Below, one piece after another: positions 20,807 through 38,548 of a stretch of DNA of 38,680 nucleotides. How positions within the stretch are numbered: position 1 is the stretch's first letter; each line of letters opens with the position of its first letter. The stretch spans positions 1-38,680 of the forward strand of contig JAJZRA010000011.1 of the NCBI GenBank assembly GCA_021847485.1. The letters are read 5' to 3'. A program made the position numbers and the translations under genes. The stretch comes from a bacterium (lineage in GTDB: Bacteria > Elusimicrobiota > Elusimicrobia > Elusimicrobiales > UBA9959). The notes beneath the pieces were generated by a model that saw only the letters and a program-made list of their open reading frames with translations, was not told the origin of the DNA and made no database searches.

Positions 20807-21124
20807 ATGGAGAACAAAGAAAATACCCCCAAGCCGGCCGAAACCGCCGCCGCCCCGGCCTCCGCGCCGCGGCCCCACGCCGGCCCCGGCCCGCGCCGCC
20901 CCGGCGGCCGCCGGTTCGCCCCGCGCCGCAAGGTCTGCCGCCTGTGCGCCGAGAAGATCGACCACGTGGACTACAAGCAGGTCCAGATCGTCAAGAGCTT
21001 CTGCACCGACACCGGCAAGATCCTGTCCCGCCGCATCACCGGCGCGTGCGCCAAGCACCAGCGCCAGATCATGAGGGCCGTGAAGATCAACCGCAACCTG
21101 TCGGTCCTGCCTTACAACGGCTAA
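20807..21124 (+). CDS. rpsR: 30S ribosomal protein bS18
   Basis: 105 residues. The conserved core is [16 protein letters not shown] ... [36 protein letters not shown] plus the later Cys-x-x-His (CAKH) is the zinc-binding form of bS18, which many bacteria have lost. The N-terminal 40 residues are an Ala/Pro/Arg-rich extension, longer than usual. CAGGAGCG before ATG gives a good ribosome-binding site. Confidence 0.95.
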
Positions 21125-21138
21125 TTACGGAGCATAAA

Positions 21139-21588
21139 ATGAAAGTCATACTGAAGAAAGACGTCTACAACCTGGGCCGCTCCGGCGAGATCAAGACCGT
21201 CAAGGACGGCTACGCCCGCAACTTCCTGATGCCGCGCGGCCTCGTCGAGATAGCTACCGAGGGCGCCCTGAAGGCCTGGAAGAACTCCGCCGAGAAGCGC
21301 TCCAAGCGCCAGGCCTCCGAGGACGCGGCCCTCAACGAGCTGGCCAAGCGCCTCTCCGCGATCACGCTGTCGTTCTCCCGCCCCGTCTCCGAAGAGGGCG
21401 TGATGTACGGCTCGGTCGCCAAGAGCGACATCATCAAGAACCTGGCCGCCGCCGACATCGAGATAGACAAGGACATGATCCGCCTGCCCGCCTCTATCAA
21501 GGCCGTCGGCACCGTCGAGGTCGAGATAGCCCTGAAGCCGCATATAACCGCCAAGATCAAGGTGGCGGTCTCGGCCCAGAGCAAGTAA
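21139..21588 (+). CDS. rplI: 50S ribosomal protein bL9
   Basis: 149 residues from ATG 21139 ([35 protein letters not shown]); the track ORF starts upstream inside rpsR. The N-terminal domain, long connecting helix and C-terminal domain are all present at normal length. GGAG precedes the ATG. It binds 23S rRNA near the L1 stalk. A GC hairpin follows before dnaB. Confidence 0.95.
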
Positions 21589-33730: not shown

Positions 33731-33804
33731 GCGGGCGTGGTTCAATGGTAGAACGGGACCTTGCCAAGGTTCAGACGAGGGTTCGATTCCCTTCGCCCGC
33801 TCCA
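33731..33804 (+). tRNA. tRNA-Gly (anticodon GCC)
   Basis: 74 nt with encoded CCA. The acceptor stem GCGGGCG / CGCCCGC is perfect, the D arm is GTTC-AATGGTA-GAAC, and the anticodon loop is TTGCCAA. The T arm is GAGGG-TTCGATT-CCCTT. The discriminator base is T. It has its own promoter and is followed by two repeats derived from its 3' end. Confidence 0.97.
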
Positions 33805-33846: not shown

Positions 33847-33932
33847 TTTATGAGCGGGCGAAGGGAATAATTCCTTATAAAGAACGGTCGCTGCCGCTCC
33901 CTGTCGCCCGCTCCAAAAATTTAGATGAACAA

Positions 33933-33958: not shown

Positions 33959-34045
33959 TTATGAGCGGGCGGAGGGAATCCTTCCTTACGGGGAGGCTCG
34001 CTGCCGCTCGCGTGTCGCCCGCTCCGAAGTGCGGGGGCGGCGGGT

Positions 34046-34074
34046 TTGACTTTGGGGGCGGGGGATGCGAGAAT
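34046..34074 (+). promoter_or_regulatory. Promoter of the HAD hydrolase gene
   Basis: TTGACT (34046-34051), exact 17-nt spacer, GAGAAT (34069-34074). The ATG follows 7 nt after the -10. AGAGGGG abuts the ATG and is too close for normal Shine-Dalgarno use. Confidence 0.6.
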
Positions 34075-34081
34075 AGAGGGG

Positions 34082-34777
34082 ATGAAAGATATACAGGTTA
34101 TCGGGTTCGACGCGGACGATACGCTTTGGGTCACGGAGCCGCATTTCCAGGCGGCGGGCAGGGAGTTCGGCGGGCTGATGGCGCCGTGGGCTTCGGCGGA
34201 GAAAGCCGCCGAGGAGCTTTACGCCACGGAGATGGCAAACCTCGGGACCTACGGCTACGGCGCCAAGAGCGTGATGCTCTCGATGCTCGAGACCGCGCTG
34301 CGGCTGGGCGGGGACAAGGTGCCGGCGGCCACGCTGCGCCGCGTGCTGGAGTCCGGCCGGCGGCTGCTGGACTATCCCATGGAGCTGCTGCCCGGGGTGG
34401 AGGGCGTGCTCAAAGAGCTGCGCGGCCGTTACCGCCTGGTGCTCATCACCAAGGGCGACCTGCTGGACCAGGAACGCAAGCTGCGGGGGTCCGGGTTGAA
34501 GGCTTACTTCCACCACGTGCAGATCCTGAGCGACAAGCGCGAGAGCGATTACCGCGACCTGCTGGCCACGCTGGGCGTGGAGCCGCGGCGCTTCCTGATG
34601 GTGGGCAACTCGATGAAGTCCGACATTCTGCCGGTGCTGGCGCTGGGCGGCTGCGGGGTGTACATCCCTTATGAGGTCACCTGGCGGCACGAACATGTGG
34701 AAGGCGCGTCGCCCGATCCGGCCCGCTTCAGGCAGCTGAAGGATATTTCCGGATTGCCGGGCTTGCTGGCCCGCTAA
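34082..34777 (+). CDS. HAD-superfamily hydrolase
   Basis: 231 residues from ATG 34082; the track start reads through the promoter. Motif I is FDADDTLW (Asp10 nucleophile, Asp12 acid/base), motif II lies in LVLITKGD, the conserved Lys in ILSDKRESDY, and motif IV in MVGNSMKSDILPVL. A helical cap lies between motifs I and II, so this is a subfamily IA phosphatase like YjjG or phosphoglycolate phosphatase. The second Asp followed by DT and Trp (DDTLW) recalls nucleotide and haloacid phosphatases; the substrate is open. It ends at a bidirectional terminator shared with a convergent gene. Confidence 0.82.
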   Translation: MKDIQVIGFDADDTLWVTEPHFQAAGREFGGLMAPWASAEKAAEELYATEMANLGTYGYGAKSVMLSMLETALRLGGDKVPAATLRRVLESGRRLLDYPMELLPGVEGVLKELRGRYRLVLITKGDLLDQERKLRGSGLKAYFHHVQILSDKRESDYRDLLATLGVEPRRFLMVGNSMKSDILPVLALGGCGVYIPYEVTWRHEHVEGASPDPARFRQLKDISGLPGLLAR

Positions 34778-34778
34778 G

Positions 34779-34835
34779 TCCGGGCAAAAAAAGAAACCCC
34801 GCGGTCCCAAATCCGCGGGGTTCTTCTTTGCCGGA
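34779..34835. terminator. Bidirectional terminator between HAD and secreted-protein genes
   Basis: AACCCCGCGG / CCGCGGGGTT core stem with an 8-nt loop, flanked by A-rich and T-rich tracts that extend the stem (CGGGCAAA / TTTGCCGG). It serves both convergent genes. Confidence 0.85.
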
Positions 34836-34842
34836 CTAAAGA

Positions 34843-35424
34843 TCAGTCCGTGCAGTTGGCGGCGTGGTAGGTGTTCACCGCGTCGTGGTAGAGGTCGGTC
34901 ACGTTGCTGCCGACATGCCCGTCGGAGTCCGTGTAGATGGAAGGCCCGTGGACCACGATGTCGGCCGCGTCGGACGCGGTGTCGTAGGCGTGGCCGGCGA
35001 CATTGCCGACGTAATCGCCTACGGTATGGGCGTCTTCCCACCAGCCTTTGTCCTTCCCCGCGGCGGCCTCGAAGGAGTTCTTGCCGGCGAGCGGCTTCAC
35101 CTCGGAAGAGAGCTTGGAGATCTTGGAGGCTTTGGCGTTCACGAGCTGGTCAGCGGTCTGGCCGTAGATGTTGCGGGCCGGGCCGGCGGAGGTCTTGGAG
35201 GCGGAGACCGCCGAGGTTTCCTCGGAGGGGGAGGTCTTCTTGGTGAGGGAGCCGCTGAAGAAGTCGTTAAGGACGCCGCCGGCCTTGTTGAAATCCTTCT
35301 TCATATCCACGGAGGCGATCTTCTCGCCGGCCCCGGAGAGGCCCTCAAGGCTGCCGGCCGCCTGCGCGCCGGACACCGCCGCGAACACCGCCACTACCGC
35401 TACCGCTATGCCTTTCTTGTTCAT
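34843..35424 (-). CDS. Secreted protein of unknown function
   Basis: 193 residues with signal peptide MNKKGIAVAVVAVFAAVSGAQAAG. The first half is Ser/Lys-rich and probably disordered. The second half is Asp/His/Tyr-rich (WWEDAHTVGDYVGNVAGHAYDTASDAADIV ... TDLYHDAVNTYHAANCTD), looks helical, and has a single Cys near the end. Repeated HxYD / LYHDAV and AYDTA-type patches could bind metal. AAGGAAACG before ATG. No family recognised. An AAATTGCTCCGTA box lies 49 nt upstream and recurs before the gene at the right window edge. Confidence 0.6.
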   Translation of the reverse strand: MNKKGIAVAVVAVFAAVSGAQAAGSLEGLSGAGEKIASVDMKKDFNKAGGVLNDFFSGSLTKKTSPSEETSAVSASKTSAGPARNIYGQTADQLVNAKASKISKLSSEVKPLAGKNSFEAAAGKDKGWWEDAHTVGDYVGNVAGHAYDTASDAADIVVHGPSIYTDSDGHVGSNVTDLYHDAVNTYHAANCTD

Positions 35425-35526
35425 ATGTCGTTTCCTTTTTCCTGTTCTAGAGATTTGCGCTGCTATGCCCGCTACGGAGCAATTTTTGTGCCAGCAACAG
35501 GGCTGGCGTTATATTTCAACTAATGG

Positions 35527-35532
35527 TGTAAT
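35527..35532 (+). promoter_or_regulatory. -10 box (TGTAAT) 9 nt before the CPBP gene start
   Basis: TGTAAT ends 9 nt before ATG 35542. The track ATG at 35533 would start right at the box and is less likely. GGGAG between them may act as a weak Shine-Dalgarno. Confidence 0.4.
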
Positions 35533-35541
35533 ATGGGAGCG

Positions 35542-36267
35542 ATGGAAACGGCCAACGATGGATATGCGGCGGTCGGTCCGCGTCGAGAGGCGCGGACCGG
35601 GCTGGGCTTGGGTTTACGGCTGGCGGCGGTGCTGGCGCTGGGCTATCTTGGAGGCTTCCTGCTGACTCTGGCCGTGCCGCGGGGGGCGTCCGGGCCGGGG
35701 TATCTGTCCTCTGCTATACTGCAAACAGTACTCATTTTATTCTTTAACGCGGGCTTGGCGGCGGCGGGGACGGCTTACCTGACGGGGGCCTGGCCCCGCG
35801 TACTGCGCGGCTGGTTCCGCGCCGCGGGCACGGCGCGGGCCGTGTTCGCCGGTGTCGCCGCTGGCGCGGCGTTGTTCGCCGTCTACGGGGTGCTGTCCGC
35901 CTGGCCGTGGTCCGCGGGCGGCTTATCCGTTCACTTCAAACAGTTGGAGTCCTACGAGGTCATCGCAAGGGTTTTCAAGCACCTGGCGGGCCCGGCAGGA
36001 GAAGAGATGCTCTTCCGAGGCATGCTCTTTACCGTGCTGGCGCGCTTCGGCGCGCGGCGGGCGGTGCTGCTCAGTTCGCTGGTGTTCGCGCTGTTCCATC
36101 TTAACTCCGGCTCCTCCATGGACCTGCCGCAGGCGCTCCGGGTCGGCTGGTTCTTCTTCGCGGGAGCGGCCTACTGCGAGCTGTTCCGCCGGAGCGGCAG
36201 CCTGCTGCCCGCGATAGCCGCGCATTCCGGCTATAACTTGCTGACCAGCCTCTTCTACCTCGGCTGA
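35542..36267 (+). CDS. CPBP-family intramembrane metalloprotease
   Basis: 241 residues from ATG 35542 (three fewer than the track ORF). The protein is highly hydrophobic with about six to seven membrane segments. The Rce1/CPBP motifs are all visible: GEEMLFRG (Glu154, Glu155, Arg159), FALFHLNS (His186) and AAHSGYN (His228, Asn232). Family members process prenylated proteins, bacteriocins or membrane substrates; the substrate here is unknown. The last 29 codons and the following terminator are duplicated at 37413-37568, downstream of the next gene. Confidence 0.85.
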   Translation: METANDGYAAVGPRREARTGLGLGLRLAAVLALGYLGGFLLTLAVPRGASGPGYLSSAILQTVLILFFNAGLAAAGTAYLTGAWPRVLRGWFRAAGTARAVFAGVAAGAALFAVYGVLSAWPWSAGGLSVHFKQLESYEVIARVFKHLAGPAGEEMLFRGMLFTVLARFGARRAVLLSSLVFALFHLNSGSSMDLPQALRVGWFFFAGAAYCELFRRSGSLLPAIAAHSGYNLLTSLFYLG

Positions 36268-36334
36268 ATATTTCCGCGGCAAAAAAAAGACCTGCCCGCA
36301 GGGGCCGGTCCTTCGCTTTCCGCGCCGGGGTCAG
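36179..36334. repeat. 156-bp direct repeat, copy 1
   Basis: Covers the CPBP 3' end, the following hairpin, and four bases up to GTCAG. It aligns with 37413-37568 without gaps at an offset of 1,234 bp, with about six substitutions by eye. Its hairpin is imperfect compared with copy 2. Confidence 0.9.
36281..36312 (-). terminator. Orphan terminator-like hairpin in repeat copy 1
   Basis: On the minus strand GACCGGCCCC...GGGCAGGTC precedes T8. It has no minus-strand gene to terminate here; its intact twin ends the deiminase gene at 37515-37545. The stem has mismatches, consistent with relaxed selection. Confidence 0.55.
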
Positions 36335-36388
36335 GGCTGTGAGGGGGGCATGTTTACAATAGCGGAGTGGAAGAGGTAAAGTAGAGCA

Positions 36389-37390
36389 ATGAACGAACAG
36401 GCGGCGCGGATAACTGAAATAGGGACCCTCCTCTCACCGGAAAAAAGGATCGACACTTCTTTCTCCGTGATCTTTCTCAAAGGCGGCAAAGCGTTCAAGG
36501 TGAAAAGGGCGCTGCGCAACGGGTTCCTTGATTACTCAACTCTCGAGAAGAGGCGCGCCATGTGCGAGCGGGAGTTCCGGATCAACAGCCGGAATTCACC
36601 GGAGCTTTATCGCGGAGTGATCGCGGCGGCGCGTGGCCGCGGCGGGGAGCTGGAGCTTCATGCGAACGCTGCCGCCCCCGGCCACGACACGGTGGAGTAT
36701 CTCCTTGAGATGAACCGTTTTGAGGAGACAATGCTCTTGAGCCGCCTTGCCGCAGCAGGACGGCTGACCGACGGCCTTTGCTCGGATCTGGCCGGTAAGA
36801 TCGCCCTCATGCACGGCTCCTCTCCCCTGGTGGAGTTCGGGGATTATGCCGGTAATTTCGAGAACGTCGTCCGGATAATAATCCGGCAGTTCTCCGAATC
36901 CACTGTCGGTGTGATCCCTGAGAAGGCATCGCCGGAGATATCCGCGAAACTCCTCGCCGCGCTCGACAGGTGCCGGCCGGTGCTGGCCGCGCGCGCTAAG
37001 GACGGCTTCGTCCGGGAGTGCCATGGCGATCTGCATCTCGGCAACATCTGCCTGTTCAATGGAGCTCCCTGCATTTTCGACGCCGTGGAGTTCAATACCG
37101 AGTTCACGCGCATAGATACGCTCTACGATATCGCTTTTCTGATAATGGACTTGCATCATCATGGCTTGTCCGGCCAGGCCGGCCGCATAATGGAGGGCTA
37201 CCTCTCCGGTACCGGCACCTCGCGTGAGGCGTGGGAGGCCGTCATGCCGCTATACCTTGGTCTGCGCGCGGTGATCCGTTGCAGTATTTCGGCGGGTAGC
37301 CTGCGGGAGTGTCGTTCCAAGGAGACCGCGGCGCGGCTCAGGGAAGAGGCGCTTCGCTACTTCCGGGAAGCTGACGGTTTCCTTTCCTGA
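36389..37390 (+). CDS. Aminoglycoside-phosphotransferase-fold kinase (COG2187-like)
   Basis: 333 residues. N-terminal SFSVIFLKGGKAFKVKRALRNGFLDYSTLEKRRAMCEREF holds the ATP-binding Lys, HGDLHLGN (212-219) is the catalytic loop, and IFDAVEFN (Asp231) is the metal site. This pattern matches the kinase half of the family that often carries a second P-loop kinase domain; that half is absent here. Codons use more T and A at third positions than the flanking genes. It lies between 156-bp direct repeats and so looks inserted. TTTACAAT about 30 nt upstream and an AGAGG leader may drive it. Substrate unknown. Confidence 0.75.
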   Translation: MNEQAARITEIGTLLSPEKRIDTSFSVIFLKGGKAFKVKRALRNGFLDYSTLEKRRAMCEREFRINSRNSPELYRGVIAAARGRGGELELHANAAAPGHDTVEYLLEMNRFEETMLLSRLAAAGRLTDGLCSDLAGKIALMHGSSPLVEFGDYAGNFENVVRIIIRQFSESTVGVIPEKASPEISAKLLAALDRCRPVLAARAKDGFVRECHGDLHLGNICLFNGAPCIFDAVEFNTEFTRIDTLYDIAFLIMDLHHHGLSGQAGRIMEGYLSGTGTSREAWEAVMPLYLGLRAVIRCSISAGSLRECRSKETAARLREEALRYFREADGFLS

Positions 37391-37414
37391 AGGTAAATTT
37401 CAAATATCTTCTAG

Positions 37415-37501
37415 CTGTTCCGCCGGAGCGGCAGCCTGCTGCCCGCGATAGCCGCGCATTCCGGCTATAACCTGCTGACCGCCCTCTTCTACCTCGGCTG
37501 A
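37415..37501 (+). pseudogene. C-terminal fragment of a CPBP protease gene
   Basis: Reads LFRRSGSLLPAIAAHSGYNLL then TALFYLG and stop, matching the last residues of the intact CPBP protein except for one Ser to Ala change. An in-frame TAG precedes it and there is no start, so it is a remnant. The other coding difference is a silent Leu codon change. Confidence 0.8.
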
Positions 37502-37514
37502 ATATTTCCGCGGC

Positions 37515-37545
37515 AAAAAAAGGACCGGCCCGCAGGGACCGGTCC
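37515..37545 (-). terminator. Terminator of the deiminase-family gene
   Basis: On the minus strand GGACCGG / CCGGTCC with a 10-nt loop, then T7. It begins about 20 nt past the stop codon. Confidence 0.8.
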
Positions 37546-37564
37546 TTCGCTTTCCGCGCCGGGG

Positions 37565-38548
37565 TCAGAAGACTTCGTTGGTTAGGCAGTGGACGGAGCC
37601 GCCGGCGTAGCGGAAACTGGTCAGCGGGGCCACGTAGCGTTCGATGCCCATTTTCTTCAGCCTCTCCTCCACGCCGGGCGTGGAGAAGCGGCTGCAGTTG
37701 ACCATGACGCCGGGGGCTATCAGCGCGTTGACGGCGTAGTCGCCCAGCGTGTCGCCGGTGCCGGAGGAGTCCTGCGCGGTGACCTCGATGACCGGCACTT
37801 TGAGCGCGCGGATCTTGGCCATGCTCTTAGGCTTGATGCTGTCCGAGGCTATGATCAGCGCGGCCAGCCTGTTGTCCGCCGAGACTACCGGCGTGAAGAC
37901 GGTGTCGAGGTGGTAGCCGTCGGACTCCACCAGGATGTAGTGGTCGGGGCGCACGATGTCGCGCACGAAGTCGTGGCCTTTCTTGGAAGAGCGCGAGAGC
38001 CCGCCGAAGTAGTAGCTGCCTTCCGCGGTCTTGAGGAAGTTGATGTCGCCGCCCTCCAGGAAGGCGTCCTTCGGCGTGTCGATGACGGTCTTCTTGAGCT
38101 TGGAGGAGATCACCTGCGTGTGGAACTCGCCCTCGGTGATGCGGTCCTTCACGCTGAAGCGGCCCTTGATCCAGATGCTGCGGAAGATCATGCCGCCGTC
38201 GCGGATGAAGACGGCGTCGTGGTAGAGGCTGTCGGGGCGGTTGAGCTGCTCCGGGAAGGGGAAGATGTGCAGGTGGAAGCCGGCCAGCAGCAGCGTGTCC
38301 ACGAAGTTGAGCCATTCGCGGCGCAGCAGGTCCTGGTCGGGCACTATGCCGTGCTCCTTGGCGTAGAGCGTGGCGAAGTTGACGCTGGTCTCGGTCTCGC
38401 CCTTGTGGACGGGGTAGCCCTTGTGCCACATGCCTTTGACCTCGGGCGTGACGGGGGGCAGGCCCAAAATGACTATCTCACGGTTATGTTTATGCGCGTT
38501 CATAGTTGCGGTTCCGGGAAGCAGGCGCTTAGTGTTCCTGTTTCTCAT
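37565..38548 (-). CDS. Amidinotransferase/dimethylargininase-family hydrolase
   Basis: 327 residues, of the guanidine-modifying superfamily (arginine deiminase, DDAH, agmatine deiminase). Visible catalytic parts are YHDAVFIRDGGMIF, LEGGDINFL, GYHLDTVFTPV (the His base) and the terminal GGSVHCLTNE with nucleophile Cys321. DDAH-like proteins release citrulline from (methyl)arginine; plain arginine deiminase activity is also possible. Start is ATG 38548 with AGGAAG upstream; ATG 38503 (MNAHKHNRE) is an alternative and fits the family's short N-termini better. No arginine pathway neighbour is seen. Confidence 0.82.
   Translation of the reverse strand: MRNRNTKRLLPGTATMNAHKHNREIVILGLPPVTPEVKGMWHKGYPVHKGETETSVNFATLYAKEHGIVPDQDLLRREWLNFVDTLLLAGFHLHIFPFPEQLNRPDSLYHDAVFIRDGGMIFRSIWIKGRFSVKDRITEGEFHTQVISSKLKKTVIDTPKDAFLEGGDINFLKTAEGSYYFGGLSRSSKKGHDFVRDIVRPDHYILVESDGYHLDTVFTPVVSADNRLAALIIASDSIKPKSMAKIRALKVPVIEVTAQDSSGTGDTLGDYAVNALIAPGVMVNCSRFSTPGVEERLKKMGIERYVAPLTSFRYAGGSVHCLTNEVF

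Follow-up and report, generated by a model that had tools for sequence, protein, structure and literature searches.

A direct repeat on either side of a kinase gene

The window, i.e., the whole 38,680-nt stretch of DNA analysed here, contains a tRNA-Gly(GCC) gene followed by genes for a hydrolase, a small protein, a CPBP protease, a kinase and a deiminase. The kinase gene lies between two copies of a 156-bp repeat, termed J1 and J2. The features of the locus are:

33731–33804, plus strand: tRNA-Gly(GCC), left edge of a variable slot
34046–34777, plus strand: HAD-type hydrolase gene, cargo
34843–35424, minus strand: gene for a small protein of 193 aa with a signal-peptide-like start, cargo, divergent from the CPBP gene
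35533–36267, plus strand: intact gene for a CPBP (Rce1-like) intramembrane protease, 244 aa
36179–36334, plus strand: J1, comprising the final 89 nt of the intact CPBP gene, its 3′ flank with a hairpin, and TCAG, which is the deiminase stop codon plus one base
36281–36313, minus strand: J1 hairpin with a U8 tract on the minus strand, predicted relic terminator, z −2.1
36335–37412, plus strand: segment between the copies, 1,078 bp, with one gene, the kinase
36389–37390, plus strand: APH/COG2187-like kinase gene, 333 aa, with the motifs HGDLHLGN and FDAVEF
37413–37568, plus strand: J2, comprising the CPBP tail without the remainder of the gene, the hairpin, and the deiminase stop codon plus one base
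37413–37501, plus strand: CPBP gene remnant, 29 C-terminal codons plus stop, with an in-frame TAG just before
37515–37547, minus strand: J2 hairpin with a U7 tract on the minus strand, probable deiminase terminator, z −3.9
37565–38548, minus strand: deiminase (DDAH/arginine dihydrolase-like) gene, right edge of the variable slot

In a pairwise comparison, J1 and J2 aligned over 156 bp with six substitutions and no gaps, their starts being 1,234 bp apart, which confirms the repeat described in the initial annotation. It is the sole direct repeat of at least 50 bp in the window. No third copy was detected in the 2.2-Mb genome (next match E = 0.01), and other genomes of the genus yielded merely partial matches of 32–35 nt, apart from contig C14 of genome G006 (see below). 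Three of the differences are located in the CPBP tail, including one synonymous change (TTG/CTG) and one double change (AGC/GCC), and the other three in the stretch of the hairpin; six differences are too few for rooting the two copies. The edges of the repeat can be read directly: on the right, each copy ends four bases into the deiminase reading frame (TCAG), and on the left the repeat begins inside the CPBP gene. The previously noted 29-codon CPBP fragment in the second copy is present, behind an in-frame TAG stop.

The repeat carries two predicted terminator hairpins. Their U-tracts are both on the minus strand and hence suited to leftward transcripts such as that of the deiminase. Since no gene on the minus strand ends at the J1 hairpin, the claim that the terminator of copy 1 faces no gene holds. 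Although its neighbour is the kinase gene, J1 contains the deiminase stop codon and a terminator in deiminase orientation; therefore, a junction of CPBP and deiminase probably served as its template and is the simplest source. Alternatively, the repeat may consist entirely of the CPBP gene's own 3′ flank, with TCAG being a microhomology used in joining to the deiminase gene. A known structured RNA was rejected, since Rfam had no match in the repeat and recognised only the tRNA.

Among the 34 genes called in the window, the kinase and CPBP genes are the two most atypical in codon usage. Their codon-adaptation-like scores are 0.39 and 0.42, compared with 0.65–0.85 for most others, and their GC3 values are 0.73 and 0.82, compared with 0.87–0.97. 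Thus, the deviating codon usage proposed for the kinase was verified, but it is not restricted to this gene, as CPBP is nearly equal. A third gene with strongly atypical codon usage (20944–21588, score 0.46, GC3 0.76) is found amid otherwise uniform neighbours. No recombinase, integrase or transposase family was recognised among the six proteins scanned between 32.7 and 38.5 kb, in agreement with the initial annotation, which had reported no transposase or integrase. A defence island was rejected, as PADLOC found no match at the locus.

Relatives of CPBP in other genomes of the genus are at best 31–43% identical over parts of the protein, and none is close. In four of the five other loci of the genus with a CPBP relative (G026:C41, G026:C35, G027:C87 and G011:C95 being those four), a gene similar to the 193-aa small protein lies within about 1 kb of the CPBP gene. 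The two genes are divergent in the window (34843–36267) and point in the same direction elsewhere, overlapping in G026:C41. Judged by this arrangement, they look like a conserved substrate/protease or secretion pair.

The variable slot beside tRNA-Gly and its kinases

In members of the genus, the left flank of the locus is conserved (CysS, in some cases PAP2 and an NCS2 permease, tRNA-Gly(GCC)), and the right flank, in members where it was found, consists of the deiminase gene and/or a response-regulator (REC) gene. The content in between differs by species. G009 and contig C3 of G006 have genes for a PGAM-like protein, a secreted protein (sp238) and an aldo-keto reductase; G017 has a 358-aa beta-propeller-like gene, G022 radical-SAM genes and a kinase, G015 a kinase, and G024 almost nothing. 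HAD relatives are present elsewhere in the genomes of G009, G006 and G017. Hence, the interval from tRNA-Gly to the deiminase or response-regulator gene is a variable slot with species-specific cargo and not a fixed junction, which contradicts the idea of a kinase gene inserted into a fixed CPBP–deiminase junction. With its constant flanks, formed by CysS, PAP2 and tRNA-Gly to the left and by deiminase and REC to the right, and its differing cargo, the locus resembles tRNA-associated gene-exchange hotspots. However, the window lacks an integrase and a full direct repeat of the tRNA 3′ end at the right edge.

Downstream of the tRNA, at 33852–33914 and 33963–34025, the window contains two units of an element of about 60 nt (GCGGGCGAWGGGAAT..TTCCTTA..GCTCGCTG..TCGCCCGC). 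Its pattern was matched in 22 of 32 genomes of the genus, in many of them downstream of tRNA-Gly genes, and a reversed control pattern gave no match. The element is found with tRNA-Gly genes of all three anticodons, on the strand of the tRNA and mostly 36–78 nt downstream of it; some copies form tandem units. Over its first 15–17 nt, it is complementary to the 3′ end of the neighbouring tRNA, with a variable base that tracks this tRNA even within one genome, GAAGGG occurring with CCCTTC and GATGGG with CCCATC (e.g., in G017, G004 and G014). No Rfam match was obtained, and a literature search returned no paper on tRNA-complementary repeats. The element may be an RNA that pairs with tRNA-Gly, a tRNA-derived repeat homogenised by gene conversion or a mobile element targeting tRNA-Gly. 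It is more unusual than the kinase and its repeat scar nearby.

The window kinase matches Pfam family PF01636 (E = 2e-5; 24.9 bits, cut-off 23.2) and contains the HGDLHxxN motif and a downstream D motif, both invariant in the aligned set A1. According to its sequence, it is an APH-fold protein, presumably of the family COG2187. The same family is suggested by relatives in the phylum and by plasmid matches, whose annotations read "bifunctional aminoglycoside phosphotransferase/ATP-binding protein" or "AAA family ATPase". Like COG2187-type bifunctional proteins, the kinase has the HGDLH motif, and it is approx. 40% identical to them along more than 90% of its length. In contrast to them, it has 333 aa and lacks the C-terminal P-loop ATPase half, the open frames of the phylum relatives being 540–610 aa long. 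All plasmid homologues are below 60% identity, no relative was recovered from viral contigs, and a search of solved structures found nothing.

Within the genus, the kinase was found in three species (that of the window, G015 and G022), which are scattered on the CysS tree. In all three it is downstream of tRNA-Gly, 0.2 to 4.4 kb away in G015 and G022. The G015 gene directly follows the tRNA, and the contig then ends, leaving the right edge unseen; the G022 gene is located just before the REC gene. The nearest relatives of the window species (G006:C3, G009 and G017) have no kinase. The composition of the gene deviates in two of the genomes: its codon usage is atypical in the window genome, and in G015 it has a higher AT content than the neighbouring genes. 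No such deviation is seen in G022. The window kinase is closest to that of G015, while the CysS tree rejects a clade of these two species; a tree of the kinase comprised three orthologs only, too few to judge an import by, and gave an AU p of 0.245. The pattern is compatible both with exchange through the slot and with an old resident gene that was lost repeatedly. Since the kinase occurs downstream of the same tRNA-Gly in two distant species, it cannot be assumed to be the sole newcomer or to be of distant origin.

The same structure in a second strain

A contig binned with G006 (C14; JAJYNO010000014.1, 4,954 bp, SPAdes coverage 2.9) is 99.0% identical to the window over 3,679 bp (37 mismatches). 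Its order is tRNA-Gly, HAD, small protein, CPBP, J1, kinase, J2 and the last approx. 147 bp of the deiminase gene. Because this second assembly has the same structure and five of the six differences between J1 and J2, the repeat is not an assembly artefact. The shared differences further imply that the copies are either long-standing or had diverged before they came together. C14 appears misbinned and probably strayed in from a strain of the window's species, since the G006 bin already includes a deiminase locus (contig C3), a HAD gene (C16) and a PAP2 gene of its own. Compared with the window, C14 has about 600 bp of extra sequence between tRNA-Gly and HAD (L029, 458–1283), which includes an inverted repeat of about 20 nt (ggggaagcaatcaggacc..ggtgatcctgattgcttcccc) and, except for the tRNA-linked element, has no match elsewhere in the compared loci.

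The two strains differ unevenly along the locus. The block 35425–37568 has three substitutions in 2,144 bp, whereas 34046–35424 has 31 in 1,379 bp (Fisher p = 3e-10, with block edges picked after the data were seen). CPBP (735 bp) is without any substitution and the kinase (1,002 bp) has one, while the genes to the left differ by 1–3%. The near-identity of this block indicates that CPBP, J1, kinase and J2 most likely travelled together, as a single unit exchanged between strains. As J1 and J2 differ by 4%, far more than the 0.14% between the strains in the block, the copies had diverged before the exchange or were different alleles from the start. The segment 36335–37412 showed no similarity to any of the compared sequences, except to the other strain and to short patches of the G022 kinase gene.

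Origin of the repeat

Taking these results together, we consider it somewhat probable that the repeat is the scar of one or two DNA imports into the variable slot by homologous plus illegitimate recombination. The long, gap-free direct repeat (156 bp, six substitutions) on both sides of the insert is what additive integration leaves. The CPBP gene would have come to face the deiminase gene and to share its terminator, creating the junction of CPBP, terminator and deiminase stop. DNA of another strain, carrying the kinase joined to another allele of this junction and probably to a CPBP allele, would then have integrated additively: a ligated circle could enter by one crossover within J, a linear fragment by a homology anchor at one end and an illegitimate join at the other. 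The kinase would thereby come to lie between two J alleles, with one CPBP gene cut to its last 29 codons, and the finished block would later have spread between strains by ordinary homologous recombination. Both the order of events and the mechanism are inferred. Such an import accounts for two copies that differ, for the CPBP remnant and for the lack of a recombinase.

Both ways of integration have parallels, in the laboratory or in comparative work. It is documented that linear DNA can be ligated into circles, followed by a RecA-dependent single crossover (PMC3240628), and for other loci, homology-facilitated illegitimate recombination has been put forward as the source of 3′ remnants of displaced genes (PMC5361080). 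As in these systems (PMC3240628; PMC5361080), a non-homologous gene is found beside homologous DNA together with a direct repeat or 3′ remnant, and no integrase is needed. In contrast, the event in the window is deduced from a static genome, and two new junctions need explaining. The T6SS effector displacement arrays of Vibrio cholerae and Rhs orphan tips (PMC5361080) likewise have a new module upstream of the truncated 3′ end of an older homologous gene, but the window has no recognised toxin or immunity gene, its cargo being a protease, a kinase and a hydrolase, with one remnant. The competence-channel gene comEC was detected in 31 of 32 related genomes, although ComEC is widespread and its presence is no proof of competence.

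An additive import at the junction had already been suggested in the initial annotation. The deiminase relic in J1 and the atypical kinase, absent from G006:C3, G009 and G017, agree with it, but none of 32 genomes of the genus had the predicted empty site, where a single J would separate the CPBP gene from the deiminase gene facing it. Given the unrelated cargo of the relatives and the distance of their CPBP proteins, this assumed ancestral state has not been seen. A donor with the kinase joined to a CPBP tail was not found either.

A different, rather doubtful history is local tandem duplication with differential loss. An ancestor with the order kinase, HAD, small protein, CPBP, J and deiminase would have duplicated the stretch from kinase to J, and then lost the first kinase and most of the second HAD/small protein/CPBP set. 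The outcome would be the present order of CPBP, J1, kinase, CPBP tail with J2, and deiminase; this history likewise accounts for the kinase of the two other species, and the place of the kinase in G015 speaks for it. The kinase may indeed be an old resident of the slot, as it is immediately downstream of tRNA-Gly in G015 and just before REC in G022, and 111-bp tandem units in the neighbouring tRNA-Gly 3′ flank demonstrate that duplications occur there. Nevertheless, three events are required, neither strain has a trace of a kinase or its leader upstream of HAD, and the missing kinase in the three nearest relatives demands repeated loss. It is improbable that a kinase fragment was captured at a double-strand break with staggered ends, whose 156-nt overhangs would have become a long target-site duplication. 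Such a capture would create both new junctions in one event and fits the sharp, gap-free repeat ends. However, Ku was found in none of 32 related genomes, making classical end joining unlikely, and initially identical copies would have had to gain about 4% divergence, as against 0.14% between strains for the whole block.

Transposon target-site duplications are short (about 2–15 bp) and accompanied by terminal inverted repeats and a transposase; here, the copies are 156 bp long, no inverted ends were reported and the scanned proteins include no transposase. An unrecognised mobile element with J as its ends or att sites is very improbable, although the slot is anchored at a tRNA, a frequent feature of integration sites. 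No further J is present in the window's genome or, apart from contig C14, in other genomes of the genus, and J shares no sequence with the tRNA, from which it is 2.4 kb distant; the scanned cargo proteins offer no integrase or other recombinase and the viral contigs no kinase relative. Together with the low identity of the plasmid homologues, this led us to reject an element ending in J, and an integrative element at the tRNA is not apparent. It is likewise quite far-fetched that the junction of CPBP tail and terminator is a recurrent, integrase-free docking homology, with cargo genes bringing their own copy of it and being added or released by homologous recombination between copies, which would make the slot similar to a cassette array driven by terminator-containing repeats. 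A chimeric assembly of two strains is hardly credible: the copies differ by 4%, like alleles, and the window assembly is of the metagenome type (122 contigs), but the structure and most of the copy differences recur in the second assembly, which has 37 mismatches in 3,679 bp.

The favoured import would leave a scar that is real but of a known kind, reflecting ordinary genome plasticity. In this uncultured genus of Elusimicrobia, with a competence-channel gene and no detectable Ku, single genes can accumulate in a tRNA-anchored slot with no recognised mobile-element enzyme involved, and the scars of such accumulation are still readable.
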